NCBI GenBank assembly: GCA_033782935.1
Contig: JAWQEG010001313.1
Span: 632,001 to 696,000 of the forward strand
Direction: 5' to 3'
Source: Petrolisthes cinctipes
Taxonomy: Eukaryota; Arthropoda; Malacostraca; Decapoda; Porcellanidae
DNA length: 64,000 bases
Part shown: positions 23,760 to 64,000 of the stretch, one piece after another
How positions within the stretch are numbered: position 1 is the stretch's first letter
Layout: every line of letters starts with the position of its first letter
The notes under the pieces: generated by a model
The model's database searches: none
Told to the model about the DNA's origin: nothing
Seen by the model: only the letters and a program-made list of their open reading frames with translations
Made by a program: the position numbers and the translations under genes

Positions 23760-25072
23760 TTTAATAGTTGAGGTGTATTTAAAGGCTATATTTACATCAC
23801 TTGTGTGACAAATAGACCTCACCATACTCAAATCAGAGATGTAAGGCAATGTGAGAAAACGTTTCATTTGTGTGGTGGGGTTTTTTGGAGCATAGTGAGA
23901 TTGCCTTGCTTTAAGGTAGGCTTTTTTTATGAACCAAGGGGAGTATTTTAAATTTTGAAAGATTTTCCAAATCAGCTGATTTTCTTCATGTATATGCTCT
24001 GGACTGCAAATTCTGAGGGCTCTAAGGAACATTGATGAGATGACAGACAATTTTGTGGCCGAATGATGATACGAATAGTAATGAATGAACAAATTACAAC
24101 TGGTAGGCTTCCTATACACTTTAAAGCTTAGTAAATGATTAAGTTTTACTACTAATACATCTAGAAACGGAAGTACGCCACCGTTCTCCCATTCGACTTT
24201 AAAATTGATGGATGGTGCAAGGTGATTAAGCTGGTGGAAGAAATCATCAAAGTTGTCAAGGGCTGAGGGCCAAAATGAAAAAATATCGTCTACGTAGCGA
24301 AACCAAACGAGATGAGGGGGGAGATACGTGGTAGTAGTTCCGTTTCAAAATACTCCATATATAAATTGCTTAAAATGGGTGACAGTGGGGAACCCATACC
24401 CATGCCAAAACATTGCATATAATAGTTGTTATTGAAAGAAAAAGCGTTTGAAGTTACACATAATTTTACAAGTTCTATGAAAGTGTCGACTGGCATGCCC
24501 AAATCAATATCACAGTCAGGCAATTTATTAGCAAGAAATTCTAGGACATCATTAATGGGAACTTTAGTGAACAATGAATCGACATCGAAACTAACCATTT
24601 TACCAGAGAAAAGATTAAGTTGTTTAATTTTGTCTATAAAATCAGAGGAATTCTTCACATGGGCTGGAGAAACAGTACCTATGGTGGGGGCTAATTTATT
24701 GGCAAGGAACTGTGATAATTTATACGTAAAAGAACCTGACTGTGAGATGATAGGACGCATTGGAATATTTTCTTTGTGTGTCTTTGGTAAGCCATACATA
24801 TATGGTAACTTTGGATTGATCTGAATAAATGTCTTGCTGTCTATATTAGGAACATTATTTAGGGATTGTTTCACTTTCTTGTTGAATGCTGAGGAAAGTC
24901 TCTTGAGTGGGGAAGATCGTAATTTCTCATATGTTGTTGTATCACTCAAAAGATTTTCCATTTTATTTACATATTCCATTTTATCAAGAATCACCCCGGT
25001 ATTGCTTTTATCCGATTTTGTAATGAAAATTTCCTCATTTCTACTTAATTTGTTGAGAGCAGCACGATTGTG
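23760..25072 (-). pseudogene. Penelope-like reverse transcriptase, frameshifted
   Basis: Starts inside the N-terminal domain (LNKLSRNEEIFITKSDKSNT), then PYMYGLPKTHKENIPMRPI, motif A MVSFDVDSLFTKVPI and motif B GMGMGSPLSPILSNLYMEYF. The frame 24994-24290 then ends at GFAT-stop. A one-base change, best placed in the C6 run (plus strand G6, about 24318-24323), moves the catalytic YVDD box (FRYVDDIFSFW) to another frame, which continues to 23748 (VYRKPTSCNLFIHYYSYHH). A second shift near 23752 separates it from the GIY-YIG part. Both RT catalytic sites are otherwise intact. Confidence 0.85.
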
Positions 25073-25650
25073 AACTAGTTTACATAGGAGAGACTGGCAG
25101 ATTGTGAACTAGTTTACATAGGAGAGACTGGCCGAAATCTAGAAACTAGAATTAAGGAACATAAATATGCCACTAAGACGTGTAATTTAAACAATGCTAT
25201 TTTTAACCATGTTTGTAATGCCAATCATAGAATTGATTGGCAAGGTAGCCATCTGATGTATAAAAGCAACGACTTTAGAAAACGTAAGATAATCGAATCG
25301 ATGTGCATTGAAAAATACCGCAATTTCAACCTTAGTTATGGTATGTATAAATTAGACCCAATAATGAGATCCTTGGTAGAAATGTCCCTTCCCTCACCAC
25401 ACACACCTCACATCACCTCACCTCACCCACACCTAGGTGACGCCCAAGGGGTGACCTGCCCTCACCGACACCTCCTGCTACCCCATCCCACTGACACCTC
25501 CTTCCCTCCACCCTCCACAAACTGTATATAAGTTCATACCTATGTACTATCTATGTCATTCCTTTCTTCGCGCTAGACCACTGAAGATGGTGGCAGTGTC
25601 CACCGAAACTGTATGGATTAATATATTATTTCCGTCAACAAGAGTGGGTT
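25073..25650 (+). mobile_element. inverted partial copy of the Penelope-like 3' region
   Basis: Reverse complement of 23156-23690: ELVYIGETGRNLETRIKEHK, NHVCNANHRIDW, then the CCTCACC repeat and the hammerhead-like box. Its first 35 bp (ATTGTGAACTAGTTTACATA and following) are tandemly duplicated at 25068 and 25103. It and the element at 23105-25072 form a local inverted repeat with about 1.4 kb between. Confidence 0.8.
25581..25609 (+). ncRNA. hammerhead-ribozyme-like core motif (inverted copy)
   Basis: Same 29-base block as at 23176-23204 (CTGAAGA, GGTGG/CCACC hairpin, GAAAC), here on the plus strand. Confidence 0.45.
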
Positions 25651-25674
25651 TTATTCACATCTTATATTATATCT

Positions 25675-25810
25675 ATGTACTCCACTATAAGGAGTTATAA
25701 CATGATATCAACAACTTTTATTATATCTATGTACTCCACTATAAGGAGTTATAACATGATGTCAACAACTTATATTATATCTATGTACTCCACTATAAGG
25801 AGTTATAACG
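25675..25810 (+). repeat. 62-bp tandem repeat, about 2.3 copies
   Basis: Continuation of the array seen at 23037-23097, on the far side of the Penelope-like element, which therefore inserted within or beside the array. The last unit runs into a GT microsatellite. Confidence 0.85.
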
Positions 25811-26073
25811 TGTGTGTGTGTGTCTTTTTGTTTCTTGTGAGAGGGATAGAGAAAGAGAGAGAGTTGTTGTGTTTTTGTCTCTTGTATGTGAGAGAAAGGG
25901 GGAGCAAGAGAAAATGTGTGTGTGTGTTCTAAATCTAGAATAAAATGACTGAGTGATTCTCACACTGTGTAGTTGGACTGACACACACACACACACAGAC
26001 CTTTACTGCTTTTTGTACTGGTATTTACTTTGAATATAACCTGTATTTTAATGAGATAGTAGCCTATACTTAC

Positions 26074-26175
26074 GGTACATTGGAATGCCTTGATTCACCC
26101 AAAGTATGCCAGGAAATAATATCAGATGAATTAAAATTAATTGTGGCCTGATGTTGGTGGCAATAGTTTGTTGGA
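26074..26175 (-). mobile_element. MITE family A, copy 2 (diverged)
   Basis: Contains GGTACATTGGAATGCCTTGA and CCCAAAGTATGCCAGGAAAT, the reverse-oriented counterpart of the core at 7526-7661 and 35921-36051. The other end is too diverged to place. Confidence 0.45.
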
Positions 26176-26484
26176 ATTATTTGCTTTGATTGTAACCTGT
26201 GATTTAATAAACACAAAAAGTTTGCATTTGTTGCAGATCAGTGTTTTATTATCAGTCCTTCTTTGTTTATTCAAGTATTTTTTATCTGTGTTGGACAGTG
26301 AGGGTGAAGTGATTCATACATACATAGAAGGAATAAAGAACTAATGATAAACAACATTACTCGATAAAAAAAGAAAAGAAAAACACACACACAGACACAG
26401 GAGAATAGACATTTGGAGAATATGTAGGTTCAGACTTGCTGTAATGAAACGTGGGTATTGACCAAGACGATGATGGACATATTG

Positions 26485-26690
26485 GTTGGCTGTGACCGGA
26501 GAACACACACACACAGTGGTAGTGGGTGACAGTGGTAGTGAACGGAGAACACACACACACAGTGACAGTGGTAGTGACCGGAGAACACACACACACAGTG
26601 GTAGTGGGTGACAGTGGTAATGACTGGAGAACACACACATACACAGTAGTAGTGGGAGACAGTGGTAATGAGTGAACGTGTTTGTGTATT
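26485..26690 (+). repeat. minisatellite, CA runs with AGTGGTAGTG spacers
   Basis: About five units of GGAGAA-(CA)n-GTGGTAGTG with or without GGTGACAGTGGTAGTGA. Confidence 0.8.
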
Positions 26691-28235
26691 TGTCTCTGAG
26701 CTTCGGGATATTTTGAAGACAACAAGTGGAGCCCGGCTACATTCTCTACTCTGCTCACCTGGTAAAGTTTAATATAAGGGTGAGTGGACGAGGAAATCCT
26801 GTCTCATAAAAGTTTATAGCTAAGAGGAAAGGCTATAGTTAAAGTAAGAAATAAAAAGTAATGAAAGCGTCGGTGACGAAAGTGAATCTAGCTTGACATG
26901 GCTGGGAGAAATACTATGCAGAGAGGAACATCAGATGATAAAACAGAGAGAGGTGAAGTTTGGAGGGATAGTGAAGGGAAAGGAAGACAATATGAACTTC
27001 AAATAAAAAGGGTTACACAAATGGAATAGAATATTGAGGAAAATTCCAAGAGATAGAAGGAAATGGTATAAGAGATGAAGGAAGTAAAGGTGTTATTAAG
27101 GGATAAGATGGACAAGTGAGTGGTTGGTTAGTAGTTTAAGTGTGTGTGGTTAGTATTTAAAGCGTGTGTGTGTGTGATGCAGTGGTTGGTTGGTTAGTAT
27201 TTAAAGTAAGTGTGTGTGTGTGTACCAAGTAGAAATGGTTAGTTTTCAGCTGGATGAAGTTAGATTAGGTCATTATAGGTTAAGTTAGACCAAGATTTAA
27301 TTATGATAAGCTAAGATAGGATAGAACAGGTTATAAATGAGAAAAGGTTAGGTTATGATAGCTTCGGTTAGGATAGGATAGGGTAGAGGGTCGAACAATG
27401 AACATTCAAGGAACGGAAATAAGTGAGATAATAGATGGTTTAAGAAAAACAAATGATGGATTAATGGAACAGAACAAAGTATTGAAGCAACGAGTCGAAG
27501 TAATAGTGGATGAAAACGAAGCACCTCGAGTAAGATTGAATAGCAGCGAGGATTGATTGATATTAGGTGCCACAACAGCAAGGTCATATTGCACCAGAGA
27601 AAGGTGATAGAGAGGTGTGACAGCAAGCAGGAAGGATATATAATGAAAAGAGGGATAGTTGAAGAAAGGAAAGGGAGTGGCTGGGGCCGAAAGGGCGCCC
27701 AAACCCTTAAAGTATTGCCCACATCAGTGAGGAAAGAGGTAAGGAGCAAGGAGAGAACTTGGTAAAACTGAAACACGAGCAGGAAGGTTGGGTGAGGATT
27801 CATGAAGAGAAAATTGTTAACTTTAAAGAGGTTGTTGCGTGTGCAACTAAGGTTGTCTCTTAGTATCCTGTGCAAGAACTGTGAGATGTTTTGGGTGCAT
27901 CTCTTAGCAGTAATTAGTCCATTAGTTGCTATGGTAGGATGTGTGATAACATTCCTTCAGTGGAGAGCTGTATTTCCTGATTTTAACAATATGTTCATGC
28001 GAGTAGTACCTGGTACATTTGAGGGGTTGCTAATACAAACATGTGGTATGTACACTACAAAGTAATGAAACAGCATGAGAAAGGATACAATGGGTAAACC
28101 AGATTCATGGGGAGCGGCATTACTCGAACTGACAGTGGAGAATATGATGACAAAATGGGTGACAGAACAAACTAGGTATAGAGGAACATCACATACAAAA
28201 GTCCGCTAGACAAAAGTGATCATGTACACTCGGAA

Positions 28236-28388
28236 TCCAAAATTTGTATCCAGGTCTTGTTAAAGTTTTGAATCAGTTGACATACTAGTGAAACAATGAC
28301 AACGCTTATCCTGTTTCACATTTGCTTGAGCTCGCTATATTAATACTCGATCAGGCTATTCGAAGGAAGCCTGGATACATATTTTGGA
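28236..28388. mobile_element. inverted-repeat MITE (family B), 153 bp
   Basis: Termini TCCAAAATTTGTATCCAGG and complementary CCTGGATACATATTTTGGA. Inside are TCTTGTTAAAG and the block GATCAGGCTATTCGAAGG. It interrupts the CR1-like remnant. A related element at 38490-38640 has become a minisatellite. Confidence 0.7.
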
Positions 28389-28600
28389 TATGTGTGTACT
28401 TATTGAGTTGGAAATATTATAGGGAGGTGTAGATGTGAGGGATGAAGCACATAGAGAGAATAGGTTGAATTATGGAAGGACTGAGTTTAGAAACCAAAGA
28501 AAGTTCTTTTGGGGTACAGACTGGATGGAGCTGGTGGATGCCGGAAGTGTGCAGAGAAAATACTATATATTTGGAAAAATATGTACGGAAGGAGTATGTA

Positions 28601-28727
28601 CAGTCACGAGCACTAATAAGTATACAGCTCTGGTTGAAGCTTCGAACAGGCCAAATTCACCAACGAAGTAATTCCAATGGAGATCTTATTGTAGACACAC
28701 CTGAATACTTATTAGTGCTGGTGACTG
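28601..28727. mobile_element. Tc1/mariner-like MITE, 127 bp
   Basis: TA on each side (28599-28600, 28728-28729). Termini CAGTCACGAGCACTAATAAG and complementary CTTATTAGTGCTGGTGACTG. Removing it with one TA restores the linker frame …KEYV-SKYKISKLKKK. Confidence 0.85.
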
Positions 28728-29286
28728 TATCAAAATATAAGATAAGTAAACTGAAGAAAAAAGAATGGTTCACTGGACAATGTGAGACAGCAAGATTGAG
28801 AAAGGAGGAAGCCTGGAGTAGAATGCGGAGGAAGAATACACAGAAAAATAGAGAGGCATTTAAAAAGGCAAGAAATAATTATGTTCAGGCAAGAAGAGAG
28901 ACGAAGAAGAATTATGAGAAAGATATTGTAGCGACATCAAGCACCTTTATGTAGCTTCCATCTCACCTGTCCTCGGGGCGCATCTTCTGCCTCACCTGTT
29001 CTACCTGAGTCTCGCTCCAGAACAGGTGGAGTGTGGACGTACTCGTGGCGCTCTGCCTCCACTCTCGTTTGTGTTGTTGTTTTGTGTTGTTTTGGAGCTC
29101 TTGTTTGTGTTTTTTGTGTTGTTTGTGAGTTCTTGTTTGTGTGTTGCTGTTTCTGTGGTGTTGTTTGTCTGTTGTGGTTCTGTGTATAGTTTTGTTGTGA
29201 TTGTCTGTGGGTGTGTGTGTGTGTGTGTGTCCCTGGCTGATTGAGTGTTTAGTTATTTGTGTTGTTGTTTCCTTTCCATCTAGGCC

Positions 29287-30773
29287 TTGCCTGGCCTGAT
29301 GGAGAGTGCGGATTCCTGCTTGGGGGCCGACTTGGCAATGTCTGAGGAAGACGAGTCTCCAATTGAGGATCACTGGCCTGAGCTGCCTTCTCGCAACCCT
29401 CCCCCCCTCTCCTCGGTCACTCCGCAGCACAGGTTGCAGCCGTCCACCTCCTCAACCTCTACCAAGCGACCTGTTGATGCCTCGTCCGACTCCTCGCAGG
29501 ATTCCGATGGTGTGGACTGTTTACTTCCAGCTGCCAAGACTGCCAAGGGTGCTTCAGCTGTGCACGACGTACCTTCTCTGCCTCACCCTGGTGTTTCTTC
29601 TTTGTATACCAACTTCTTGCCCTCGTCCAACCTTCCTGCTTTTGCCCCGAGAGATGCCTATGTCAAACTCTCCTTCTCTGGAAACCCATCTACAGACACA
29701 AAGCTGCGTTGGTTGTCTGATGTCAACAGGGCCTTCCAGTTGCAGCGTGAACTGGCTGAAGTCAAGATGGCTGCTGTCACCTCCCGGTTTGTCTACATCT
29801 CTAGGAAGCGTCAGGATATCATTGATAGAGTGAAGGCTGGTGAATTTTTATCTCTGCCTCTCATTCATGAAGACTCACCTGAGAGGCCTCGTAAGTTCCC
29901 CAGCTACATCCTCACCCGTTTTCCTATTGATGTTGACCCGAAACTTGCCAAAGGATACCCTGGTGTGTACTTTGCCCGTCGTTTTTTCCAAGATGGTTCC
30001 CCCATTAGCCGTATTGTTGTTGTCTGGAGTCAACCCGATCCACCTCCAAATGAGATTTCCTTTGATTTCCTCCCTTGTCTTCCACCGTGTGAGGTGAGGA
30101 AACTTCATAATGACCAGCCTTGGTGCTACAGGTGCTGGGGAGTTGGGCATATCACCCGGTACTGTTCTGCCAGGCCGAAGTGTGCATTGTGTGCGGACGA
30201 CCATGATTCCAAGACGTGTCCTGTCAGGGGTGAACCATCACGTCCTTCTGCCTCCACCTCTGAGCCTTCACCTCCTGAAGATACGTCTCGATGGAAGTGT
30301 CCACGATGCCTTCAGCCAGGGTTTAAGTGTAGAATGGATGTACTCGATGTAAGGTCCAGGCTCGTGTCTCTACTATTGCTCCGCCTCCAACACCACCACC
30401 ACCACCACCACCACCTCCCCAGTCTGCTCCTACTACCAACCCTGCCTCACCTCCAGACCTGGCCCTCCGCAAGTCTGTTGCTACCCTCATGGCACGATGT
30501 ACGGCTCTCGAAAACCGCTTTTCTGCCCTTGAAGCCAGGATTGATGGGCTGGTTGCCGCTCAGGCTGCCAATGACTCCAAACTCTCCACCTTGGTCGAGG
30601 CTCAGCAGGCCATCATCTCAACTGTCACTACCCTTACCGAAAAGATGGATACTGTTGCATCTCGCCTTGAAAAGCTTTTTGAGTCATTCCCTTCTCCTGG
30701 TCCATCTTCTTCTCCAGGTCGCTCATCTGCCCCCACTCACCGGACTTCTACCTCCAAATACAGAGTTCGCTAG
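29287..30773 (+). pseudogene. ORF1 (gag-like) of the I-like element, one frameshift
   Basis: RNA-binding ORF1. Acidic Ser/Pro-rich N-terminus (MSEEDESPIEDHWPELPSR), a central domain (YVKLSFSGNPSTDTKLRWLS, FPIDVDPKLAKGYPGVYFAR), zinc knuckles CYRCWGVGHITRYC and CALCADDHDSKTC, then CPRCLQPGFKC. A one-base shift near 30335-30350 moves the true continuation (CKVQARVSTIAPPPTPPPP, a polyproline run, then the coiled coil LENRFSALEARIDGLVAAQ … LTEKMDTVASRLEKLF) into another frame ending at TAG 30771-30773. The original frame stays open through the shift and runs on into ORF2, giving an artificial 1003-codon frame to 32298. Confidence 0.8.
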
Positions 30774-33700
30774 TGATTGGCGGCTGGATGTCATCTCCTG
30801 GAATGTATGTGGTATCACCAGTTATGCTAAGCTCACTCAACTCAAGGCCTATGTTTTTCGTCATCATCCCAGTGTTATTTTTCTCCAGGAAGCATTTCCA
30901 GGACGGCCGCTCGCTCTTGGGCAAGCTCCTACCCTCTCAGGTTATGTGCCATATGTTCATCTGGTAAGGAATGGTCTCCTGACTTACATACATAGCTCCT
31001 TGCCACATCGCCTTCTCCGTACCTCCACTGATCCTGACATGACCTTTCAGCTATTTGAGGTTCTACCTGGGAATGGAGTACTCCAACTATGTAATATCTA
31101 TTCTGCCCCAGCTAGACTCACTCTTGAGGCTCTTCCTTCTCCAACAGTGCGTGGTATGGTGTATATGGGAGATTTTAATGCTCGGCATTCTGATTTGGGT
31201 GATGGTACTGGCTCTATTAATCGTAATGGTGTTCGTCTCCTTTCATACATCCGCAAGCATCATCTGACACACTGGGACACTGGTGGTGCCACTCATTGCC
31301 GGGGAGGTACTCTGGATTACATCCTCTCGTCTGGCCTGATAGCATCTCAGGTCCAGTGCTTCTCCGTGCCAGACTTATTCTCTGATCACATCTCTCTTCG
31401 GTTTCATTATTCTCTAACTGCTGGGTCAGGTGCTTCAGCCACTAGTTTGCGTATTGCTGTGCCCCCTAAATATTGCCCGACTTACATCTTATTTATGGCC
31501 CATGTATTCCCTACATTTGACATATCATCAGCTGAACAGTTGTACTCTGATCTTGTATCTGCTACTCATGACTTTTATAGGCTATACGTCTCCCGGCCAC
31601 ACCTCCAGCATCGCCATACTGCCCACTCCTGGACGCTGGATGCACGTATACAGGAGGCAAAGGAGGAGGCTGAACGTGATGGCCTATTGTTTCAAGCCAA
31701 CCCAACCCCTGACCTACTCCATCGTTACCAGATGTCTAGGGACGCTTTAGTTGCCCTGCAGGATTGTGCTCACACTGAGTCTTGGCAGCGGTTCACGGAC
31801 AGCATCAACCAGCAAACAAGTGTGGCTTCTATGTGGCACCTCATCCGTAGGGTTGTTAAAAAGACACCGGCCACTGCTCGTCATCACACTCCTGCCGACT
31901 ATGCCAAACAACTTGTCGATGCCTGGTCAGAACAATCTACCCCAGCCAGTCTACCCATCCACATACAAGATGCACTCGCTTCCCGTGCTGGTGTCCATCG
32001 GCTATGTCTAATGTCTGCTCTGTTAGAAGATGATGACGATGATGCAGAGGAGATAACTGAGGAGGAGTTGCGCCTTGCTCTCATTCGGGGTAGAGCTTCT
32101 TCCCCTGGTGATGATGGTATTACTTATGCTGTGCTGCGCCTACTTCAACAAGTTCCTGGGAACCCTCTACTTCGACTGTACAATCTTTGTCTTCGTGACG
32201 GTTGTGTACCACGAGCCTGGACCAGCAGCACAATAATACCCATCCCTAAGCCCGGCACTGCGAAGTTCAGGCCTATTTCCCTTACTTCCTGTTTCTGAAA
32301 GGTTATGGAGAGAATCTTACTCAATCGTCTCATGTACAGATTGCAGGATCGCCTCTCTCCATGGCTGTTTGGTTTCCTTCCCCAGCGGAGCACACATCAC
32401 TGCCTAATCGACCTGTACTCTCGCCTTTCCAGGGACAGTGTGGTGGCCTTAATTGACCTTCGAAGTGCCTTCGATGTTGCTAATAGAGACGTCATTTTGG
32501 ATCAACTGGTTGACTTTGGGATAAAGGGTAATCTACTACAGTGGATTCGGGGCTACCTGAGTAGCAGGACCTCCTGTGTGTTTTTCAGTGGTGCACTCAG
32601 TCCTTTGCGCAGTTTTCATCTTGGTACGCCTCAAGGTGGTGTTCTCAGCCCATTGTTATTTAATATTCTGATGCATCGGTTGCTCACTTCTCTCCCTGAT
32701 ATTCCTGGAACTACAATTACGTGCTATTCTGATGATATCTGTGTTCATTCTACCTCACCAAGGGATCTCCAGCGGTTTCTTGACTCCTTCTCTGTGGCCT
32801 CCTCTCACTGTGGCATTATTGTCTCCCCAGATAAGAGCAGAATATTCACCTGCCGCCATCCTCAAGCTCAGCCAGTGTTCACCATTGGAGGGACTGTCAT
32901 TCCCATGTGTTCCCAGTACTGCTACCTGGGTGCGCCAGTCAATATTTGGCCGATTGTCTCTGCCAGACCTCAAGACCATCCCATTGTCCAGGACTTATTG
33001 GGTCGTCTCCAGCGCCGACTTACACCACTTCAATGGCTATCTAACAACTCCTCGGGCATCTCCATCCCAGTAGCCAGGACCATCTATATTGCTTTTATCC
33101 GTTCAGTTGTTGATTACCTTTCCCCTGCTCTGATTCAACTTCCTAGGGCTACTCTGGAAACTTTAGAAAAATTTCAAAATAGAGCAATGAGAATTATTCT
33201 CGGCTGTCCAATGTCGACCAGGATAGTGAACATGCAGCGTGAGTTGTGTCTTCCCCCATTAGTGGAGAGAATTTATTCTAATGTTACTTGCTTCACTGTC
33301 AAGTGCCTCCATTTCCCACATCTTTCACCCCATTACTCTCAGTTAGTCAGGACTTCTCTTAGACCAAACTACCCGGTCCCTCCCATACTGCCTGCTGGAC
33401 GTACTCTTATAAGGTCTGTTTCCTCTGTGCTCCGTGGTCTTAATATAGATATAATGGTTGCAGACATCCCCCCAGGGCCCCCTCCATGGATGCTACCAAC
33501 ACCTGATGTGAGCTTTACACCTACTTCCAAGTCGGAGCTGCCTTCTCTACAGCAGCAGTTGGCTCTGGAACACATAGAAACAGTGACTTCCTCCATCACA
33601 GATCCATACTGCCTCTACACTGATGGCTCATTGCAGGTGGATGGTGCAGCAGGTTGTGCTGTTTTCTCGCCTGACCTGGAGTCACCTCCAGGGGTCTGGG

Positions 33701-34455
33701 TTGGCCGTCGTCTTTGTAACCACTCTAGCTCAACATTGTGTGAACTGTATGCCATTCTGGATGCTGTTAGTGTTGTTTGTCAACGTGGAGTGAATGCTGC
33801 CATTTTTTGTGACTCCAAACCTGCCCTTCATTCCCTCTCTAGTGTTCAGCCCACACACTCTACTGTTATTCAGCAGATTTTATCGTTTTTGGCCTTATTG
33901 CGTCACCGTAACTTGACTGTCAAATTTTTATGGGTGCCATCCCATGTAGGTTTACGTCACAATGGTACAGTTGACAGACTCGCAAAGGAAGCCTGCCATC
34001 TGCCTCCTCGTGGTGCTGGACGTCCTCTCTCCCTGACATGTTACCTCTCTAAAGTCCGCTCCGCCGCTCTCCTCCCTGTACGGCGACGCAGGGATGCAGA
34101 GAGGCCCTTCAGCATCTCCATCACCCATTACGAGTCTGTCTGCCATCACAAATATTCCTACCGTCGTCGAGGCCTCATGGTTCGGAGGCACAATGTAGTC
34201 TCTGCTCGTTTGAGGCTTGGCTACCGGCCACCGTGGCAGGTTGCTGGGATGCAGGGTGAGCCTCCCTTCACTGAGTGTCGCTTGTGTCGAACCCCTCGTG
34301 CTAACACTATAGAGCACTATTGCCTAGCCTGCCCCACTGTCCGACACTTGCTGCCCCAGGGCCTGCCACTTGATGTGGTTTGTCGACACCTGCTGAACCA
34401 TCAGGCTCTGGAGGAACTTCTGGTGCGCCACCCTCGTTTTGGTGGATTTAAGTAG
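30774..34455 (+). pseudogene. ORF2 (endonuclease, RT, RNase H) of the I-like element, one stop
   Basis: Overlaps the end of ORF1. Endonuclease: WRLDVISWNVCG, VIFLQEAF, MVYMGDFNARHSDLGDG and FSDHISLRF. Linker, then IPIPKPGTAKFRPISLTSCF, a TGA at 32296-32298, and KVMERILLNRLM. RT: motif A ALIDLRSAFDVANRD, motif B LGTPQGGVLSPLLF, motif C CYSDDICVH. RNase H: LYTDGSLQVDGAAG, LCELYAILDA, FCDSKPALHSL and GTVDRLAKEA (D-E-D-D). C-terminal Cys motif CRLCRTPRANTIEHYCLAC. All catalytic residues survive, so the single nonsense codon is the visible lesion. Confidence 0.88.
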
Positions 34456-35065
34456 GTCATGATATAAATATTTGTCTGTATGCTTGTGCTTCATTCTGTT
34501 ATGTTTTCGTGATGTGAGTGTGTGTGCGCATGTGTGTGTGCTTGTGTGTGTATGTGGTCATTGGGTTCTCGTGAGTCCCGCTTACCCTTGTGTACTGTTG
34601 TCTGCCTATTGACTGACGCTATGGCGCAATGAATTAAAAAAAAAAACAAAAAAAAAACTGTTCTACCTGAGACAACCTGGCTGGCCTAAGCGACCGCAGC
34701 GCCATTGTTCATTCACTCGGCCACTAGCTCTACACCTGGAAACACCTCCATCTCCTGACCTGCCGTGCCCCCTGTCGCTACCTGCCTACACCAAGCTCTC
34801 CACGTGTCGCCTGCAGTACCTACCTCTCTCACACTACACGACCACGGCAGGCGGGAACTCACAGCTACAAGGTGCTTGCTACTACACAACCTATGTACTT
34901 ACCAATAAATTGTTACCGTGTATAATCGAATCTGTTCACCCCGGTAGTAACACAGCTTCAAGGTGCTTGCTACTACACAACCTATGTACTTACCAATAAA
35001 TTGTTACCGTGTATAATCGAGTCTGTTCACCCCGGTAGTAACACAACCACTTGTTGTTACAATAT

Positions 35066-36415: not shown

Positions 36416-36435
36416 AACACAACTATCTGAGTACA

Positions 36436-38429
<1,994 letters not shown>

Positions 38430-38434
38430 TGAGT

Positions 38435-38437
<3 letters not shown>

Positions 38438-38489
<52 letters not shown>
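38438..38489. repeat. CA then (GA)n microsatellite
   Basis: Short CA run and about 45 bp of GA. The right-arm copy is 6 bp longer. Confidence 0.9.
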
Positions 38490-38492
<3 letters not shown>

Positions 38493-48771: not shown

Positions 48772-48896
48772 TTTTTTCTGATATTCTCGTATAGGAACTC
48801 AGTACGTTTGTTAATTACTAATTCCAAACCAAAATTGTCTCTCTATTATCACCTCATTTTACTCCATGTGATCAACCCAATTTTTTCTCATAAGAA

Positions 48897-48997
<101 letters not shown>

Positions 48998-49000
48998 ATG

Positions 49001-49513: not shown

Positions 49514-49516
<3 letters not shown>
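49001..49516 (-). repeat. degenerate 85-90 bp tandem repeat (right arm)
   Basis: Mirror of 38490-39005. Confidence 0.7.
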
Positions 49517-49577
<61 letters not shown>

Positions 49578-49582
49578 ACTCA

Positions 49583-51617
<2,035 letters not shown>

Positions 51618-51637
51618 TGTACTCAGATAGTTGTGTT

Positions 51638-52987: not shown

Positions 52988-53597
52988 ATATTGTAACAAC
53001 AAGTGGTTGTGTTACTACCGGGGTGAACAGACTCGATTATACACGGTAACAATTTATTGGTAAGTACATAGGTTGTGTAGTAGCAAGCACCTTGAAGCTG
53101 TGTTACTACCGGGGTGAACAGATTCGATTATACACGGTAACAATTTATTGGTAAGTACATAGGTTGTGTAGTAGCAAGCACCTTGTAGCTGTGAGTTCCC
53201 GCCTGCCGTGGTCGTGTAGTGTGAGAGAGGTAGGTACTGCAGGCGACACGTGGAGAGCTTGGTGTAGGCAGGTAGCGACAGGGGGCACGGCAGGTCAGGA
53301 GATGGAGGTGTTTCCAGGTGTAGAGCTAGTGGCCGAGTGAATGAACAATGGCGCTGCGGTCGCTTAGGCCAGCCAGGTTGTCTCAGGTAGAACAGTTTTT
53401 TTTTTGTTTTTTTTTTTAATTCATTGCGCCATAGCGTCAGTCAATAGGCAGACAACAGTACACAAGGGTAAGCGGGACTCACGAGAACCCAATGACCACA
53501 TACACACACAAGCACACACACATGCGCACACACACTCACATCACGAAAACATAACAGAATGAAGCACAAGCATACAGACAAATATTTATATCATGAC

Positions 53598-56500
53598 CTA
53601 CTTAAATCCACCAAAACGAGGGTGGCGCACCAGAAGTTCCTCCAGAGCCTGATGGTTCAGCAGGTGTCGACAAACCACATCAAGTGGCAGGCCCTGGGGC
53701 AGCAAGTGTCGGACAGTGGGGCAGGCTAGGCAATAGTGCTCTATAGTGTTAGCACGAGGGGTTCGACACAAGCGACACTCAGTGAAGGGAGGCTCACCCT
53801 GCATCCCAGCAACCTGCCACGGTGGCCGGTAGCCAAGCCTCAAACGAGCAGAGACTACATTGTGCCTCCGAACCATGAGGCCTCGACGACGGTAGGAATA
53901 TTTGTGATGGCAGACAGACTCGTAATGGGTGATGGAGATGCTGAAGGGCCTCTCTGCATCCCTGCGTCGCCGTACAGGGAGGAGAGCGGCGGAGCGGACT
54001 TTAGAGAGGTAACATGTCAGGGAGAGAGGACGTCCAGCACCACGAGGAGGCAGATGGCAGGCTTCCTTTGCGAGTCTGTCAACTGTACCATTGTGACGTA
54101 AACCTACATGGGATGGCACCCATAAAAATTTGACAGTCAAGTTACGGTGACGCAATAAGGCCAAAAACGATAAAATCTGCTGAATAACAGTAGAGTGTGT
54201 GGGCTGAACACTAGAGAGGGAATGAAGGGCAGGTTTGGAGTCACAAAAAATGGCAGCATTCACTCCACGTTGACAAACAACACTAACAGCATCCAGAATG
54301 GCATACAGTTCACACAATGTTGAGCTAGAGTGGTTACAAAGACGACGGCCAACCCAGACCCCTGGAGGTGACTCCAGGTCAGGCGAGAAAACAGCACAAC
54401 CTGCTGCACCATCCACCTGCAATGAGCCATCAGTGTAGAGGCAGTATGGATCTGTGATGGAGGAAGTCACTGTTTCTATGTGTTCCAGAGCCAACTGCTG
54501 CTGTAGAGAAGGCAGCTCCGACTTGGAAGTAGGTGTAAAGCTCACATCAGGTGTTGGTAGCATCCATGGAGGGGGCCCTGGGGGGATGTCTGCAACCATT
54601 ATATCTATATTAAGACCACGGAGCACAGAGGAAACAGACCTTATAAGAGTACGTCCAGCAGGCAGTATGGGAGGGACCGGGTAGTTTGGTCTAAGAGAAG
54701 TCCTGACTAACTGAGAGTAATGGGGTGAAAGATGTGGGAAATGGAGGCACTTGACAGTGAAGCAAGTAACATTAGAATAAATTCTCTCCACTAATGGGGG
54801 AAGACACAACTCACGCTGCATGTTCACTATCCTGGTCGACATTGGACAGCCGAGAATAATTCTCATTGCTCTATTTTGAAATTTTTCTAAAGTTTCCAGA
54901 GTAGCCCTAGGAAGTTGAATCAGAGCAGGGGAAAGGTAATCAACAACTGAACGGATAAAAGCAATATAGATGGTCCTGGCTACTGGGATGGAGATGCCCG
55001 AGGAGTTGTTAGATAGCCATTGAAGTGGTGTAAGTCGGCGCTGGAGACGACCCAATAAGTCCTGGACAATGGGATGGTCTTGAGGTCTGGCAGAGACAAT
55101 CGGCCAAATATTGACTGGCGCACCCAGGTAGCAGTACTGGGAACACATGGGAATGACAGTCCCTCCAATGGTGAACACTGGCTGAGCTTGAGGATGGCGG
55201 CAGGTGAATATTCTGCTCTTATCTGGGGAGACAATAATGCCACAGTGAGAGGAGGCCACAGAGAAGGAGTCAAGAAACCGCTGGAGATCCCTTGGTGAGG
55301 TAGAATGAACACAGATATCATCAGAATAGCACGTAATTGTAGTTCCAGGAATATCAGGGAGAGAAGTGAGCAACCGATGCATCAGAATATTAAATAACAA
55401 TGGGCTGAGAACACCACCTTGAGGCGTACCAAGATGAAAACTGCGCAAAGGACTGAGTGCACCACTGAAAAACACACAGGAGGTCCTGCTACTCAGGTAG
55501 CCCCGAATCCACTGTAGTAGATTACCCTTTATCCCAAAGTCAACCAGTTGATCCAAAATGACGTCTCTATTAGCAACATCGAAGGCACTTCGAAGGTCAA
55601 TGAAGGCCACCACACTGTCCCTGGAAAGGCGAGAGTACAGGTCGATTAGGCAGTGATGTGTGCTCCGCTGGGGAAGGAAACCAAACAGCCATGGAGAGAG
55701 GCGATCCTGCAATCTGTACATGAGACGATTGAGTAAGATTCTCTCCATAACCTTTCAGAAACAGGAAGTAAGGGAAATAGGCCTGAACTTCGCAGTGCCG
55801 GGCTTAGGGATGGGTATTATTGTGCTGCTGGTCCAGGCTCGTGGTACACAACCGTCACGAAGACAAAGATTGTACAGTCGAAGTAGAGGGTTCCCAGGAA
55901 CTTGTTGAAGTAGGCGCAGCACAGCATAAGTAATACCATCATCACCAGGGGAAGAAGCTCTACCCCGAATGAGAGCAAGGCGCAACTCCTCCTCAGTTAT
56001 CTCCTCTGCATCATCGTCATCATCTTGTAACAGAGCAGACATTAGACATAGCCGATGGACACCAGCACGGGAAGCGAGTGCATCTTGTATGTGGATGGGT
56101 AGACTGGCTGGGGTAGATTGTTCTGACCAGGCATCGACAAGTTGTTTGGCATAGTCGGCAGGAGTGTGATGACGAGCAGTGGCCGGTGTCTTTTTAACAA
56201 CCCTACGGATGAGGTGCCACATAGAAGCCACACTTGTTTGCTGGTTGATGCTGTCCGTGAACCGCTGCCAAGACTCAGTGTGAGCACAATCCTGCAGGGC
56301 AACTAAAGCGTCCCTAGACATCTGGTAACGATGGAGTAGGTCAGGGGTTGGGTTGGCTTGAAACAATAGGCCATCACGTTCAGCCTCCTCCTTTGCCTCC
56401 TGTATACGTGCATCCAGCGTCCAGGAGTGGGCAGTATGGCGATGCTGGAGGTGTGGCCGGGAGACGTATAGCCTATAAAAGTCATGAGTAGCAGATACAA

Positions 56501-57279
56501 GATCAGAGTACAACTGTTCAGCTGATGATATGTCAAATGTAGGGAATACATGGGCCATAAATAAGATGTAAGTCGGGCAATATTTAGGGGGCACAGCAAT
56601 ACGCAAACTAGTGGCTGAAGCACCTGACCCAGCAGTTAGAGAATAATGAAACCGAAGAGAGATGTGATCAGAGAATAAGTCTGGCACGGAGAAGCACTGG
56701 ACCTGAGATGCTATCAGGCCAGACGAGAGGATGTAATCCAGAGTACCTCCCCGGCAATGAGTGGCACCACCAGTGTCCCAGTGTGTCAGATGATGCTTGC
56801 GGATGTATGAAAGGAGACGAACACCATTACGATTAATAGAGCCAGTACCATCACCCAAATCAGAATGCCGAGCATTAAAATCTCCCATATACACCATACC
56901 ACGCACTGTTGGAGAAGGAAGAGCCTCAAGAGTGAGTCTAGCTGGGGCAGAATAGATATTACATAGTTGGAGTACTCCATTCCCAGGTAGAACCTCAAAT
57001 AGCTGAAAGGTCATGTCAGGATCAGTGGAGGTACGGAGAAGGCGATGTGGCAAGGAGCTATGTATGTAAGTCAGGAGACCATTCCTTACCAGATGAACAT
57101 ATGGCACATAACCTGAGAGGGTAGGAGCTTGCCCAAGAGCGAGCGGCCGTCCTGGAAATGCTTCCTGGAGAAAAATAACACTGGGATGATGACGAAAAAC
57201 ATAGGCCTTGAGTTGAGTGAGCTTAGCATAACTGGTGATACCACATACATTCCAGGAGATGACATCCAGCCGCCAATCA
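53598..57279 (-). pseudogene. ORF2 (endonuclease, RT, RNase H), right arm
   Basis: Mirror of 30774-34455. The RT/RNase H frame 53598-55748 differs from the left by one residue (VVAFIDL here, VVALIDL left), and the endonuclease/linker part by one (LLQDDDD here, LLEDDDD left). The same TGA separates them (55755-55757). Catalytic residues intact. Confidence 0.88.
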
Positions 57280-58766
57280 CTAGCGAACTCTGTATTTGGA
57301 GGTAGAAGTCCGGTGAGTGGGGGCAGATGAGCGACCTGGAGAAGAAGATGGACCAGGAGAAGGGAATGACTCAAAAAGCTTTTCAAGGCGAGATGCAACA
57401 GTATCCATCTTTTCGGTAAGGGTAGTGACAGTTGAGATGATGGCCTGCTGAGCCTCGACCAAGGTGGAGAGTTTGGAGTCATTGGCAGCCTGAGCGGCAA
57501 CCAGCCCATCAATCCTGGCTTCAAGGGCAGAAAAGCGGTTTTCGAGAGCCGTACATCGTGCCATGAGGGTAGCAACAGACTTGCGGAGGGCCAGGTCTGG
57601 AGGTGAGGCAGGGTTGGTAGTAGGAGCAGACTGGGGAGGTGGTGGTGGTGGTGGTGGTGGTGTTGGAGGCGGAGCAATAGTAGAGACACGAGCCTGGACC
57701 TTACATCGAGTACATCCATTCTACACTTAAACCCTGGCTGAAGGCATCGTGGACACTTCCATCGAGACGTATCTTCAGGAGGTGAAGGCTCAGAGGTGGA
57801 GGCAGAAGGACGTGATGGTTCACCCCTGACAGGACACGTCTTGGAATCATGGTCGTCCGCACACAATGCACACTTCGGCCTGGCAGAACAGTACCGGGTG
57901 ATATGCCCAACTCCCCAGCACCTGTAGCACCAAGGCTGGTCATTATGAAGTTTCCTCACCTCACACGGTGGAAGACAAGGGAGGAAATCAAAGGAAATCT
58001 CATTTGGAGGTGGATCGGGTTGACTCCAGACAACAACAATACGGCTAATGGGGGAACCATCTTGGAAAAAACGACGGGCAAAGTACACACCAGGGTATCC
58101 TTTGGCAAGTTTCGGGTCAACATCAATAGGAAAACGGGTGAGGATGTAGCTGGGGAACTTACGAGGCCTCTCAGGTGAGTCTTCAAGAATGAGAGGCAGA
58201 GATAAAAATTCACCAGCCTTCACTCTATCAATGATATCCTGACGCTTCCTAGAGATGTAGACAAACCGGGAGGTGACAGCAGCCATCTTGACTTCAGCCA
58301 GTTCACGCTGCAACTGGAAGGCCCTGTTGACATCAGACAACCAACGCAGCTTTGTGTCTGTAGATGGGTTTCCAGAGAAGGAGAGTTTGACATAGGCATC
58401 TCTCGGGGCAAAAGCAGGAAGGTTGGACGAGGGCAAGAAGTTGGTATACAAAGAAGAAACACCAGGGTGAGGCAGAGAAGGTACGTCGTGCACAGCTGAA
58501 GCACCCTTGGCAGTCTTGGCAGCTGGAAGTAAACAGTCCACACCATCGGAATCCTGCGAGGAGTCGGACGAGGCATCAACAGGTCGCTTGGTAGAGGTTG
58601 AGGAGGTGGACGGCTGCAACCTGTGCTGCGGAGTGACCGAGGAGAGGGGGGGAGGGTTGCGAGAAGGCAGCTCAGGCCAGTGATCCTCAATTGGAGACTC
58701 GTCTTCCTCAGACATTGCCAAGTCGGCCCCCAAGCAGGAATCCGCACTCTCCATCAGGCCAGGCAA
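57280..58766 (-). pseudogene. ORF1 (gag-like), right arm
   Basis: Mirror of 29287-30773 with the same frameshift. One residue differs (PLILEDS here, PLIHEDS left). Zinc knuckles and coiled coil as in the left copy. Confidence 0.8.
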
Positions 58767-59325
58767 GGCCTAGATGGAAAGGAAACAACAACACAAATAA
58801 CTAAACACTCAATCAGCCAGGGACACACACACACACACACACCCACAGACAATCACAACAAAACTATACACAGAACCACAACAGACAAACAACACCACAG
58901 AAACAGCAACACACAAACAAGAACTCACAAACAACACAAAAAACACAAACAAGAGCTCCAAAACAACACAAAACAACAACACAAACGAGAGTGGAGGCAG
59001 AGCGCCACGAGTACGTCCACACTCCACCTGTTCTGGAGCGAGACTCAGGTAGAACAGGTGAGGCAGAAGATGCGCCCCGAGGACAGGTGAGATGGAAGCT
59101 ACATAAAGGTGCTTGATGTCGCTACAATATCTTTCTCATAATTCTTCTTCGTCTCTCTTCTTGCCTGAACATAATTATTTCTTGCCTTTTTAAATGCCTC
59201 TCTATTTTTCTGTGTATTCTTCCTCCGCATTCTACTCCAGGCTTCCTCCTTTCTCAATCTTGCTGTCTCACATTGTCCAGTGAACCATTCTTTTTTCTTC
59301 AGTTTACTTATCTTATATTTTGATA

Positions 59326-59452
59326 CAGTCACCAGCACTAATAAGTATTCAGGTGTGTCTACAATAAGATCTCCATTGGAATTACTTCGTTGGTGAATTT
59401 GGCCTGTTCGAAGCTTCAACCAGAGCTGTATACTTATTAGTGCTCGTGACTG
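59326..59452. mobile_element. Tc1/mariner-like MITE, 127 bp (right arm)
   Basis: Mirror of 28601-28727 with TA on both sides. Confidence 0.85.
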
Positions 59453-59664
59453 TACATACTCCTTCCGTACATATTTTTCCAAATATATAGTATTTTCTCT
59501 GCACACTTCCGGCATCCACCAGCTCCATCCAGTCTGTACCCCAAAAGAACTTTCTTTGGTTTCTAAACTCAGTCCTTCCATAATTCAACCTATTCTCTCT
59601 ATGTGCTTCATCCCTCACATCTACACCTCCCTATAATATTTCCAACTCAATAAGTACACACATA

Positions 59665-59817
59665 TCCAAAATATGTATCCAGGCTTCCTTCGAATAGCCT
59701 GATCGAGTATTAATATAGCGAGCTCAAGCAAATGTGAAACAGGATAAGCGTTGTCATTGTTTCACTAGTATGTCAACTGATTCAAAACTTTAACAAGACC
59801 TGGATACAAATTTTGGA
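59665..59817. mobile_element. inverted-repeat MITE family B (right arm)
   Basis: Mirror of 28236-28388. Confidence 0.7.
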
Positions 59818-61362
59818 TTCCGAGTGTACATGATCACTTTTGTCTAGCGGACTTTTGTATGTGATGTTCCTCTATACCTAGTTTGTTCTGTCACCCATTT
59901 TGTCATCATATTCTCCACTGTCAGTTCGAGTAATGCCGCTCCCCATGAATCTGGTTTACCCATTGTATCCTTTCTCATGCTGTTTCATTACTTTGTAGTG
60001 TACATACCACATGTTTGTATTAGCAACCCCTCAAATGTACCAGGTACTACTCGCATGAACATATTGTTAAAATCAGGAAATACAGCTCTCCACTGAAGGA
60101 ATGTTATCACACATCCTACCATAGCAACTAATGGACTAATTACTGCTAAGAGATGCACCCAAAACATCTCACAGTTCTTGCACAGGATACTAAGAGACAA
60201 CCTTAGTTGCACACGCAACAACCTCTTTAAAGTTAACAATTTTCTCTTCATGAATCCTCACCCAACCTTCCTGCTCGTGTTTCAGTTTTACCAAGTTCTC
60301 TCCTTGCTCCTTACCTCTTTCCTCACTGATGTGGGCAATACTTTAAGGGTTTGGGCGCCCTTTCGGCCCCAGCCACTCCCTTTCCTTTCTTCAACTATCC
60401 CTCTTTTCATTATATATCCTTCCTGCTTGCTGTCACACCTCTCTATCACCTTTCTCTGGTGCAATATGACCTTGCTGTTGTGGCACCTAATATCAATCAA
60501 TCCTCGCTGCTATTCAATCTTACTCGAGGTGCTTCGTTTTCATCCACTATTACTTCGACTCGTTGCTTCAATACTTTGTTCTGTTCCATTAATCCATCAT
60601 TTGTTTTTCTTAAACCATCTATTATCTCACTTATTTCCGTTCCTTGAATGTTCATTGTTCGACCCTCTACCCTATCCTATCCTAACCGAAGCTATCATAA
60701 CCTAACCTTTTCTCATTTATAACCTGTTCTATCCTATCTTAGCTTATCATAATTAAATCTTGGTCTAACTTAACCTATAATGACCTAATCTAACTTCATC
60801 CAGCTGAAAACTAACCATTTCTACTTGGTACACACACACACACTTACTTTAAATACTAACCAACCAACCACTGCATCACACACACACACGCTTTAAATAC
60901 TAACCACACACACTTAAACTACTAACCAACCACTCACTTGTCCATCTTATCCCTTAATAACACCTTTACTTCCTTCATCTCTTATACCATTTCCTTCTAT
61001 CTCTTGGAATTTTCCTCAATATTCTATTCCATTTGTGTAACCCTTTTTATTTGAAGTTCATATTGTCTTCCTTTCCCTTCACTATCCCTCCAAACTTCAC
61101 CTCTCTCTGTTTTATCATCTGATGTTCCTCTCTGCATAGTATTTCTCCCAGCCATGTCAAGCTAGATTCACTTTCGTCACCGACGCTTTCATTACTTTTT
61201 ATTTCTTACTTTAACTATAGCCTTTCCTCTTAGCTATAAACTTTTATGAGACAGGATTTCCTCGTCCACTCACCCTTATATTAAACTTTACCAGGTGAGC
61301 AGAGTAGAGAATGTAGCCGGGCTCCACTTGTTGTCTTCAAAATATCCCGAAGCTCAGAGACA

Positions 61363-61568
61363 AATACACAAACACGTTCACTCATTACCACTGTCTCCCA
61401 CTACTACTGTGTATGTGTGTGTTCTCCAGTCATTACCACTGTCACCCACTACCACTGTGTGTGTGTGTTCTCCGGTCACTACCACTGTCACTGTGTGTGT
61501 GTGTTCTCCGTTCACTACCACTGTCACCCACTACCACTGTGTGTGTGTGTTCTCCGGTCACAGCCAAC
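61363..61568 (-). repeat. minisatellite, CA/GT runs with CACTACCACT spacers (right arm)
   Basis: Mirror of 26485-26690. Confidence 0.8.
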
Positions 61569-61877
61569 CAATATGTCCATCATCGTCTTGGTCAATACCC
61601 ACGTTTCATTACAGCAAGTCTGAACCTACATATTCTCCAAATGTCTATTCTCCTGTGTCTGTGTGTGTGTTTTTCTTTTCTTTTTTTATCGAGTAATGTT
61701 GTTTATCATTAGTTCTTTATTCCTTCTATGTATGTATGAATCACTTCACCCTCACTGTCCAACACAGATAAAAAATACTTGAATAAACAAAGAAGGACTG
61801 ATAATAAAACACTGATCTGCAACAAATGCAAACTTTTTGTGTTTATTAAATCACAGGTTACAATCAAAGCAAATAAT

Positions 61878-61979
61878 TCCAACAAACTATTGCCACCAAC
61901 ATCAGGCCACAATTAATTTTAATTCATCTGATATTATTTCCTGGCATACTTTGGGTGAATCAAGGCATTCCAATGTACC
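61878..61979 (+). mobile_element. MITE family A, diverged copy (right arm)
   Basis: Mirror of 26074-26175. Confidence 0.45.
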
Positions 61980-62242
61980 GTAAGTATAGGCTACTATCTC
62001 ATTAAAATACAGGTTATATTCAAAGTAAATACCAGTACAAAAAGCAGTAAAGGTCTGTGTGTGTGTGTGTGTCAGTCCAACTACACAGTGTGAGAATCAC
62101 TCAGTCATTTTATTCTAGATTTAGAACACACACACACATTTTCTCTTGCTCCCCCTTTCTCTCACATACAAGAGACAAAAACACAACAACTCTCTCTCTT
62201 TCTCTATCCCTCTCACAAGAAACAAAAAGACACACACACACA

Positions 62243-62378
62243 CGTTATAACTCCTTATAGTGGAGTACATAGATATAATATAAGTTGTTGACATCATGTT
62301 ATAACTCCTTATAGTGGAGTACATAGATATAATAAAAGTTGTTGATATCATGTTATAACTCCTTATAGTGGAGTACAT
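62243..62378 (-). repeat. 62-bp tandem repeat (right arm)
   Basis: Mirror of 25675-25810. Confidence 0.85.
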
Positions 62379-62402
62379 AGATATAATATAAGATGTGAAT
62401 AA

Positions 62403-62980
62403 AACCCACTCTTGTTGACGGAAATAATATATTAATCCATACAGTTTCGGTGGACACTGCCACCATCTTCAGTGGTCTAGCGCGAAGAAAGGAATGACAT
62501 AGATAGTACATAGGTATGAACTTATATACAGTTTGTGGAGGGTGGAGGGAAGGAGGTGTCAGTGGGATGGGGTAGCAGGAGGTGTCGGTGAGGGCAGGTC
62601 ACCCCTTGGGCGTCACCTAGGTGTGGGTGAGGTGAGGTGATGTGAGGTGTGTGTGGTGAGGGAAGGGACATTTCTACCAAGGATCTCATTATTGGGTCTA
62701 ATTTATACATACCATAACTAAGGTTGAAATTGCGGTATTTTTCAATGCACATCGATTCGATTATCTTACGTTTTCTAAAGTCGTTGCTTTTATACATCAG
62801 ATGGCTACCTTGCCAATCAATTCTATGATTGGCATTACAAACATGGTTAAAAATAGCATTGTTTAAATTACACGTCTTAGTGGCATATTTATGTTCCTTA
62901 ATTCTAGTTTCTAGATTTCGGCCAGTCTCTCCTATGTAAACTAGTTCACAATCTGCCAGTCTCTCCTATGTAAACTAGTT
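62403..62980 (-). mobile_element. inverted partial copy of the Penelope-like 3' region (right arm)
   Basis: Mirror of 25073-25650, including the hammerhead-like block at 62444-62472 (minus) and the 35-bp duplication at about 62921-62985. Confidence 0.8.
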
Positions 62981-64000
62981 CACAATCGTGCTGCTCTCAA
63001 CAAATTAAGTAGAAATGAGGAAATTTTCATTACAAAATCGGATAAAAGCAATACCGGGGTGATTCTTGATAAAATGGAATATGTAAATAAAATGGAAAAT
63101 CTTTTGAGTGATACAACAACATATGAGAAATTACGATCTTCCCCACTCAAGAGACTTTCCTCAGCATTCAACAAGAAAGTGAAACAATCCCTAAATAATG
63201 TTCCTAATATAGACAGCAAGACATTTATTCAGATCAATCCAAAGTTACCATATATGTATGGCTTACCAAAGACACACAAAGAAAATATTCCAATGCGTCC
63301 TATCATCTCACAGTCAGGTTCTTTTACGTATAAATTATCACAGTTCCTTGCCAATAAATTAGCCCCCACCATAGGTACTGTTTCTCCAGCCCATGTGAAG
63401 AATTCCTCTGATTTTATAGACAAAATTAAACAACTTAATCTTTTCTCTGGTAAAATGGTTAGTTTCGATGTCGATTCATTGTTCACTAAAGTTCCCATTA
63501 ATGATGTCCTAGAATTTCTTGCTAATAAATTGCCTGACTGTGATATTGATTTGGGCATGCCAGTCGACACTTTCATAGAACTTGTAAAATTATGTGTAAC
63601 TTCAAACGCTTTTTCTTTCAATAACAACTATTATATGCAATGTTTTGGCATGGGTATGGGTTCCCCACTGTCACCCATTTTAAGCAATTTATATATGGAG
63701 TATTTTGAAACGGAACTACTACCACGTATCTCCCCCCTCATCTCGTTTGGTTTCGCTACGTAGACGATATTTTTTCATTTTGGCCCTCAGCCCTTGACAA
63801 CTTTGATGATTTCTTCCACCAGCTTAATCACCTTGCACCATCCATCAATTTTAAAGTCGAATGGGAGAACGGTGGCGTACTTCCGTTTCTAGATGTATTA
63901 GTAGTAAAACTTAATCATTTACTAAGCTTTAAAGTGTATAGGAAGCCTACCAGTTGTAATTTGTTCATTCATTACTATTCGTATCATCATTCGGCCACAA
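62981..64000 (+). pseudogene. Penelope-like reverse transcriptase (right arm, cut by window end)
   Basis: Mirror of 24053-25072: TKSDKSNT, PKTHKENIPMRPI, motif A MVSFDVDSLFTKVPI, GMGMGSPLSPIL, a stop after GFAT caused by the same C6-run shift (about 63730), then FRYVDDIFSFW in the next frame, ending at 64000 inside SYHHSAT. Confidence 0.85.

Follow-up and report, generated by a model that had tools for sequence, protein, structure and literature searches.

Twin near-perfect palindromes in the porcelain crab Petrolisthes cinctipes and their possible origin from one break in a retrotransposon

Two near-perfect palindromes, only 2.5 kb apart, were found on one contig of the Petrolisthes cinctipes genome (JAWQEG010001313.1, here C1312; 863,847 bp). 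The window, a stretch of 64,000 bp (C1312:632001-696000), holds the left arm, the loop and much of the right arm of palindrome 1, while palindrome 2 lies beyond it. A second contig, C1369 (202,822 bp), carried the locus in single copy, and there the loops of both palindromes were neighbours inside one long interspersed nuclear element (LINE). On balance, we favour the view that the twin palindromes arose by repair of one double-strand break inside this LINE and are a germline structural variant.

The assembly analysed comprised 1,484,209,624 bases in 9,385 contigs. The published assembly (1.49 Gb, 9.4K contigs) is described as built with hifiasm from PacBio HiFi reads of a single male, with a read N50 of 12.9 kb (PMC10849366). 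Self-comparison by BLAST covered C1312:602001-746000, and the compared sequence excluded C1312:707501-710000 (2,500 bp) and C1369:132501-137500 (5,000 bp). The reverse-transcriptase frames matched P. cinctipes proteins, with identity up to 95% across about 70% of their length.

Two palindromes on one contig

Self-BLAST placed the arms of palindrome 1 at C1312:644557-675406 and 676648-707500 (30,850 and 30,853 bp), around a loop of 1,241 bp. An initial annotation of the window had reported a giant near-perfect inverted repeat; self-comparison of the window recovered this repeat and showed it to be even larger. The arms then given, 24053-43406 and 64000-44648, aligned end to end (19,354 and 19,353 bp), and the spacer length and the joints 43406/43407 and 44647/44648 were exactly as annotated. 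The proposed arm start at 24053 was merely the mirror of the last base of the window: the left arm reached window position 12557 or before, and the right arm went on beyond the window for at least 11.5 kb. The length of the palindrome alone excluded chance. The features of palindrome 1 in window coordinates were as follows.

1..12556, plus strand: left flank (A); C1312:631624-644077 is colinear with C1369:80001-92506
12557..43406 (C1312:644557-675406), plus strand: left arm (a), extent as far as followed
43406..43407: novel joint 1, C1369 118554(+) to 119796(-), with 1-bp microhomology (G)
43407..44647, plus strand: loop (spacer) of 1,241 bp, single copy between the arms, equal to C1369:118555-119796 inverted
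43431..44834, plus strand: LINE open frame of 468 codons with an RVT_1 domain, spanning the junction of loop and right arm
44647..44648: old (parental) junction of loop and arm, with the LINE frame unbroken through it
44648..64000, continuing past the window to at least C1312:707500, minus strand: right arm (a')

End-to-end alignment of the complete arms showed 7 substitutions and 13 indels. The BLAST count of substitutions was slightly higher (9 in the longest piece, 7 in an overlapping piece), because the long AT arrays were aligned differently. Between 24053-43406 and its mirror there were 5 substitutions and 6 indels, all of the indels in AT, AG or GA dinucleotide arrays. The earliest indel lay at 37165, in agreement with the annotated lack of net indels over the outer 13 kb. 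The four substitutions counted earlier corresponded to those outside arrays (29867, 32026, 32451 and 43040); a fifth lay inside an AT array.

Palindrome 2 was located at C1312:710001-722639 and 723182-735730, directly after the stretch 707501-710000. Its arms were at least 12.5 kb long and differed by 5 substitutions in end-to-end alignment, and its loop, which occurred once between the arms, was about 0.5 kb (473 bp, with another 69 bp found solely on the right). As both palindromes extend up to 707501-710000 or its mirror, neither outer end could be placed and the arm lengths are minima; up to 2.5 kb at the right end of flank A, whose mirror would fall in the same uncompared stretch, could still be arm. 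Past palindrome 2, C1312 continued into flank B, of which 1.8 kb was colinear with C1369. Flank B contained a further inverted repeat (C1312:737874-739461 and 740807-742393), with arms of about 1.6 kb at 97.9% identity and a 1.3-kb spacer, which was at least partly present in C1369 too. Flank A contained a tandem array with many overlapping self-matches (C1312:624695-626277).

The unrearranged copy and the joints

In C1369 the order was flank A, arm a, loop 1, loop 2, arm b and flank B. The matching segments of C1369 were as follows.

80001-92506: flank A
92506-118554: arm a
118555-119796: loop 1
119815-120281: loop 2
120637-132500: arm b
137501-139291: flank B

A 5.1-kb segment at window 35271..40384 (plus strand) was found in both arms of palindrome 1 and was absent from C1369, an insertion/deletion difference. 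C1369 was taken as an allele of the rearranged locus, which would make the locus heterozygous, because A (12.5 kb) and B (1.8 kb) flank it in the right order.

Loop 1 was the inner part of the LINE reverse-transcriptase frame, and joint 1 cut the LINE at its 5' side. The junction 44647/44648 was crossed by 93 of 120 homologous proteins (the best 120 of 925 matches), and in the 30 alignments inspected the local gaps numbered 0 to 5. Genomic copies of the LINE were scored at 40 of 4,226 candidate places, namely that of the window and 39 others. All 39 others matched across the right junction to the query end or 1 base short of it, with the match starting at query position 107 in 38 and at position 101 in one. 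The left joint was present in none of these 39 places and was seen at the window's own place only. Since the other copies span the right junction and lack the left joint, 43406/43407 is the novel joint.

In C1369 the facing loop ends lay at positions 119796 and 119815, with 18 bp between them. If the loops were independent, the chance of such a spacing would be about 8e-4 (over 44-48 kb). All six of the other LINE copies compared (L003-L008) were continuous across that spot, so that C1369 was read as the ancestral order. At joint 1 (GGTCTG/TAAGG, the slash marking the joint), C1369 118554 was linked to 119796 reversed, with one shared base (G). At joint 3 (near C1312:723112; GTACCTC/ATCCAC), C1369 119815 reversed was linked to 120637, with two shared bases (TC). 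Joint 3 was the novel joint of palindrome 2, and the opposite side of that loop bore a 424-bp deletion.

Divergence and age of the arms

Over both palindromes the arms differed by 12 substitutions in about 43,275 sites, or 0.028% (95% interval 0.014-0.048%). Contigs carrying the locus were further apart. Over the arm, C1312 differed by 0.72% from C1129 and by 1.02% from C1369; the divergence between C1312 and C1369 was 0.41% in flank A (12.5 kb) and 1.1% in flank B (1.8 kb). C1129 and C5724, the most alike pair at 0.15%, each stood 1.05-1.1% away from C1369. Divergence of 0.72-1.05% would give 312-454 arm differences and divergence of 0.15% would give 66; the probability of 12 or fewer at 0.15% was about 5e-16.

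With C1369 as reference, 11 of the 12 substitutions could be polarised (7/7 in palindrome 1 and 4/5 in palindrome 2), 6 of them also by C1129 and C5724. The left and right arms of palindrome 1 carried 5 and 2 derived substitutions, and those of palindrome 2 carried 2 each; at all 11 sites the opposite arm agreed with the other contigs. At one arm difference, the right-arm residue was the one found in 90 of 91 related proteins. Since each arm carries mutations of its own, the arms have had separate histories. This is not the pattern expected of a somatic event in the sequenced gill tissue, or of a single molecule assembled twice. Of the 16 indels separating the arms, all lay in dinucleotide arrays except one at a loop edge; as none lay in a single-base run, consensus error is an unlikely source of the arm differences.

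The 12 differences were compatible with a young age or with gene conversion. At assumed mutation rates of 2-5e-9 per generation, the age would be about 28,000-69,000 generations without gene conversion, and older with it.

Content of the arms

The arms contained non-LTR (long terminal repeat) elements, a putative Penelope-like element, long AT/GA arrays and tandem repeats. The retrotransposon copies in the window were as follows.

29284..34452, plus strand: non-LTR retrotransposon in the left arm (endonuclease, RVT_1 and RNase H; two open frames)
53601..58769, minus strand: the same retrotransposon mirrored in the right arm, with three amino-acid differences

An element in pieces at window 23128-25658, presumably of the Penelope-like family, had a reverse-transcriptase frame with a weak RVT_1 match and a GIY-YIG-like frame. 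It straddled position 24053 and had an inverted 570-bp copy of its end at 97%. A 73-bp tandem repeat of 5.8 copies occurred in both arms (window 40580-41005 and 46961-47386). A frame in arm a on the minus strand (window 14008-14589), which we take to be perhaps a retrotransposon first frame, matched RRM_1 at 22.6 bits against a cut-off of 20.7.

In arm b, a cold-shock-domain frame (PF00313, E 3.4e-13) was found at L012:1403-1822, equal to C1312:727403-727822; lying in arm b, it was duplicated by palindrome 2. It is perhaps a gene piece or a retrocopy. The neighbouring stretch L012:493-909 read similarly and had no Pfam match. Clear gene cargo was found in none of the 19 frames tested, a set that does not cover small or spliced genes, and the window held no tRNA and no Rfam match at the gathering threshold. 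No pointer to a function was seen, and the structure is better taken for the scar of a rearrangement than for a device.

Origin of the palindromes

Among the interpretations offered in the initial annotation, fold-back duplication was the best fit, and its account was supported in part. The proposed starting order is A-a-X-b-B as in C1369, where X is the LINE. A double-strand break in X at C1369:119797-119814, with loss of 18 bp, would have left two broken ends. Each end would then have been turned into an inverted duplication, through fold-back and replication of the hairpin-capped end or through fusion with an unequally trimmed sister chromatid. This would have formed palindrome 1, with arms a and a loop of 1,241 bp, and palindrome 2, with arms b and a loop of about 822 bp at first and about 0.5 kb after the one-sided 424-bp deletion. 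The two extended inverted arms would have broken or ended and been joined together at a joint J, restoring a single chromosome with the order A-a-loop1-a'-J-b'-loop2-b-B, and private mutations would later have gathered on the arms. The fold-back route, in which a broken end anneals to itself and is replicated once capped by a hairpin, is described in PMC10622511, PMC7467729 and PMC3907307.

A single break in the LINE would account both for the adjacency of the loops in C1369 and for the new joint that each loop has on the side away from the break. More tentatively, and a little short of an even chance, the event may have been a two-sided fold-back. Both ends of one germline break would have made palindromes and then joined, so that the chromosome survived breakage-fusion internally, lost no arm and was passed down through tens of thousands of generations, with an intact allele alongside it.

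Several points weigh against this origin. A terminal deletion, a new telomere or a translocation is expected beyond a fold-back copy, and the contig instead continues. The sections of the literature drawn on here give telomere capture, translocation, other secondary rearrangements and centromere loss as the endings of such events, and according to one modelling paper interstitial inverted variants call for some explanation other than sister-chromatid fusion in the classic bridge cycle (PMC10766186). A two-sided, interstitially resolved fold-back was not found in the open-licence literature searched. Joint J was not seen; it would fall within C1312:707501-710000. The partner ends, C1312 640000-646500 and 733000-742500, shared no homology beyond short simple-repeat matches that could have served the joining, in a comparison that left out 707501-710000. 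The microhomology of 1-2 bp at the joints is within chance, where 2-8 bp would be expected for a fold-back; among simulated spacers reported in PMC3907307, 55% had no microhomology and 134 of 1,000 had 2 bp or more. The 424-bp deletion beside loop 2 (C1369 120282-120705), with ACAG at its edges, is left unexplained by the simple scheme.

Other difficulties concern the assembly. The evidence comes from the assembled sequence. Because the arms exceed the HiFi reads, the assembled loop orientation and the pairing of the arms depend on a few scattered variants; in palindrome 1 the widest interval was 10,589 bp for substitutions alone and 9,514 bp for differences of any kind. The assembled loop orientation may be wrong, and a symmetric inverted dimer would be expected to give both loop orientations. 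Transitions made up only 5 of the 12 arm substitutions, fewer than guessed. C1129 and C5724 also carry A-a, which could mean a duplicated region. These further A-a copies (C1129:1-30000 and C5724:1-30000) were on contigs that both end inside the arm, near AG/GA arrays (about 670.3-670.7 kb on C1312).

Alternative explanations

An artefact, in which chimeric fold-back reads or graph errors made one or both palindromes, is improbable in our judgement. The arms are longer than the HiFi reads, other contigs break inside the same arm, and fold-back reads are a known library artefact, with one Oxford Nanopore example showing about 2 kb between the segments (PMC12870357). An artefact would, however, need three false joints that form one path from A to B, and it predicts identical arms, yet private derived substitutions were found on all four. 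The assembly fold-back named in the initial annotation is unlikely for this reason, as well as for the second palindrome and the coherence of the joints derived from the unrearranged copy. Fold-back reads are reported as virtually absent from one HiFi set (Revio) and as 0.03% of an Iso-Seq set (Sequel II), among the three PacBio samples of PMC12870357. Another option of the annotation, two haplotypes joined head to head, has next to no chance of being right. The inverted layout and the several contigs carrying the locus are all that fit it, and the arms are 0.028% apart, far below the 0.72-1.1% between most contigs and the 0.15% between C1129 and C5724.

Of the other rearrangement routes, two appear equally unlikely. 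In one, a-X-b would have been cut out of the locus, or copied from it, as a circle closed at J; this circle would have opened at C1369:119797-119814 and gone back in reverse into a 2.08-kb gap (118555-120636) of its own locus. This would yield the assembled loop orientation directly, and the inserted 47.7-kb block X2-b-J-a-X1 is a circular permutation of a-X1-X2-b, although the closing joint J was itself not read; human circular-intermediate duplications likewise have microhomologies of 1-2 bp, with 1-27 bp gained or lost, as reported in PMC7450558 and PMC7188851. Given a genome of 1.48 Gb, nothing accounts for a circle landing, in inverted orientation, about 2 kb or less from where it had opened, and homologous integration would presumably give the direct rather than the inverted orientation. 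In the other, replicative template switching (microhomology-mediated break-induced replication, or fork stalling and template switching) would have made three switches: a reversal at X, a forward jump of about 40 kb at J and a second reversal at X. The 1-2 bp microhomology at both visible loop joints and the small extra deletion with ACAG edges suit it, and the inferred copy pattern 1-2-1-2-1 resembles duplication-normal-duplication (DUP-NML-DUP) events (PMC6902434); switching alone, though, leaves the 18-bp spacing of two separate switches unaccounted for, unless a break already existed in the template there. Less probable still, and slightly less so than an artefact, is a tandem duplication (A-a-X-b-J-a-X-b-B), after which an inversion broke both copies of X. 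Two ordinary steps would then produce the order and orientation that were assembled, but both breaks must strike a near-identical spot in two X copies, which would be direct repeats and thus unable to mediate an inversion by homology. Three further candidates were rejected. Against 5' inversion of a LINE by twin priming, the inverted part reaches some 30 kb beyond the element. Against a staggered-break inversion, the inverted copies here adjoin their source instead of lying at the far end. For origin-dependent inverted-repeat amplification (ODIRA), or inverted triplication, the block order did not match.

Known systems and significance

Ampliconic sex-chromosome palindromes have long near-identical arms and a short spacer, as in the crab. 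Unlike them, the crab palindromes had no clear gene cargo in the frames tested, and an unrearranged copy lies in the same assembly. The annotated analogy with such palindromes was unsupported, as the tested frames yielded mobile-element domains, one cold-shock domain, one RRM and weak matches. Segmental duplications through circular intermediates are another known class, of which cattle colour-sidedness is reportedly a case. As described in PMC7450558 and PMC7188851, this class shares with the crab a permuted block order, microhomology of 1-2 bp and a small loss at the opening point; such duplications insert elsewhere, whereas the crab block is inverted inside its own source.

The crab locus resembled the human inverted duplications with a disomic spacer described in PMC3907307 in its inverted arms, a single-copy loop about 1 kb long, the pairing of an old loop junction with a new one, and very short homology at the new joint; the crab loop sizes are similar to the single-copy spacers of 766-70,466 bp given there. 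The human cases are one-sided, with terminal deletion, telomere or translocation, and have arms of megabases (PMC3907307), whereas the crab has two facing events, a chromosome that continues on both sides and arms of 13-31 kb, apparently long inherited. Break-induced fold-back inversions of yeast likewise involve a folded break end, a replicated inverted dimer and a stabilising secondary rearrangement (PMC10622511, PMC7467729). Their loops are given as a few to tens of nucleotides, against 1,241 and about 822 bp in the crab, and in the crab, unlike in yeast, the stabilising joint would link two fold-back arms together.

DUP-NML-DUP and DUP-NML-INV/DUP (duplication-normal-inverted duplication) events share the inferred 1-2-1-2-1 copy pattern and inverted joints, but as described in PMC6902434 they have two joints, whereas the crab has three joints and a copy-neutral part of about 2 kb that sits in both loops. 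ODIRA also gives two palindromic junctions by strand reversal, with a colinear S-S'-S product (PMC10766186), whereas the crab inverted block is permuted and joined at J.

The large palindromes in the parts of the cited literature used here come from tumours, patients or yeast selections. In the crab, rearranged and unrearranged versions lie in one assembly, two of the three joints are readable to the base, and the positions of the two loops suggest a single break. Near-perfect palindromes in long-read assemblies call for a check of the sequence beyond the window and of the other allele before they are either dismissed or accepted. If the proposed origin is true, the locus would offer a natural-population test of a fold-back that was resolved inside a chromosome rather than costing its end, and a route to learning how such unstable structures persist.

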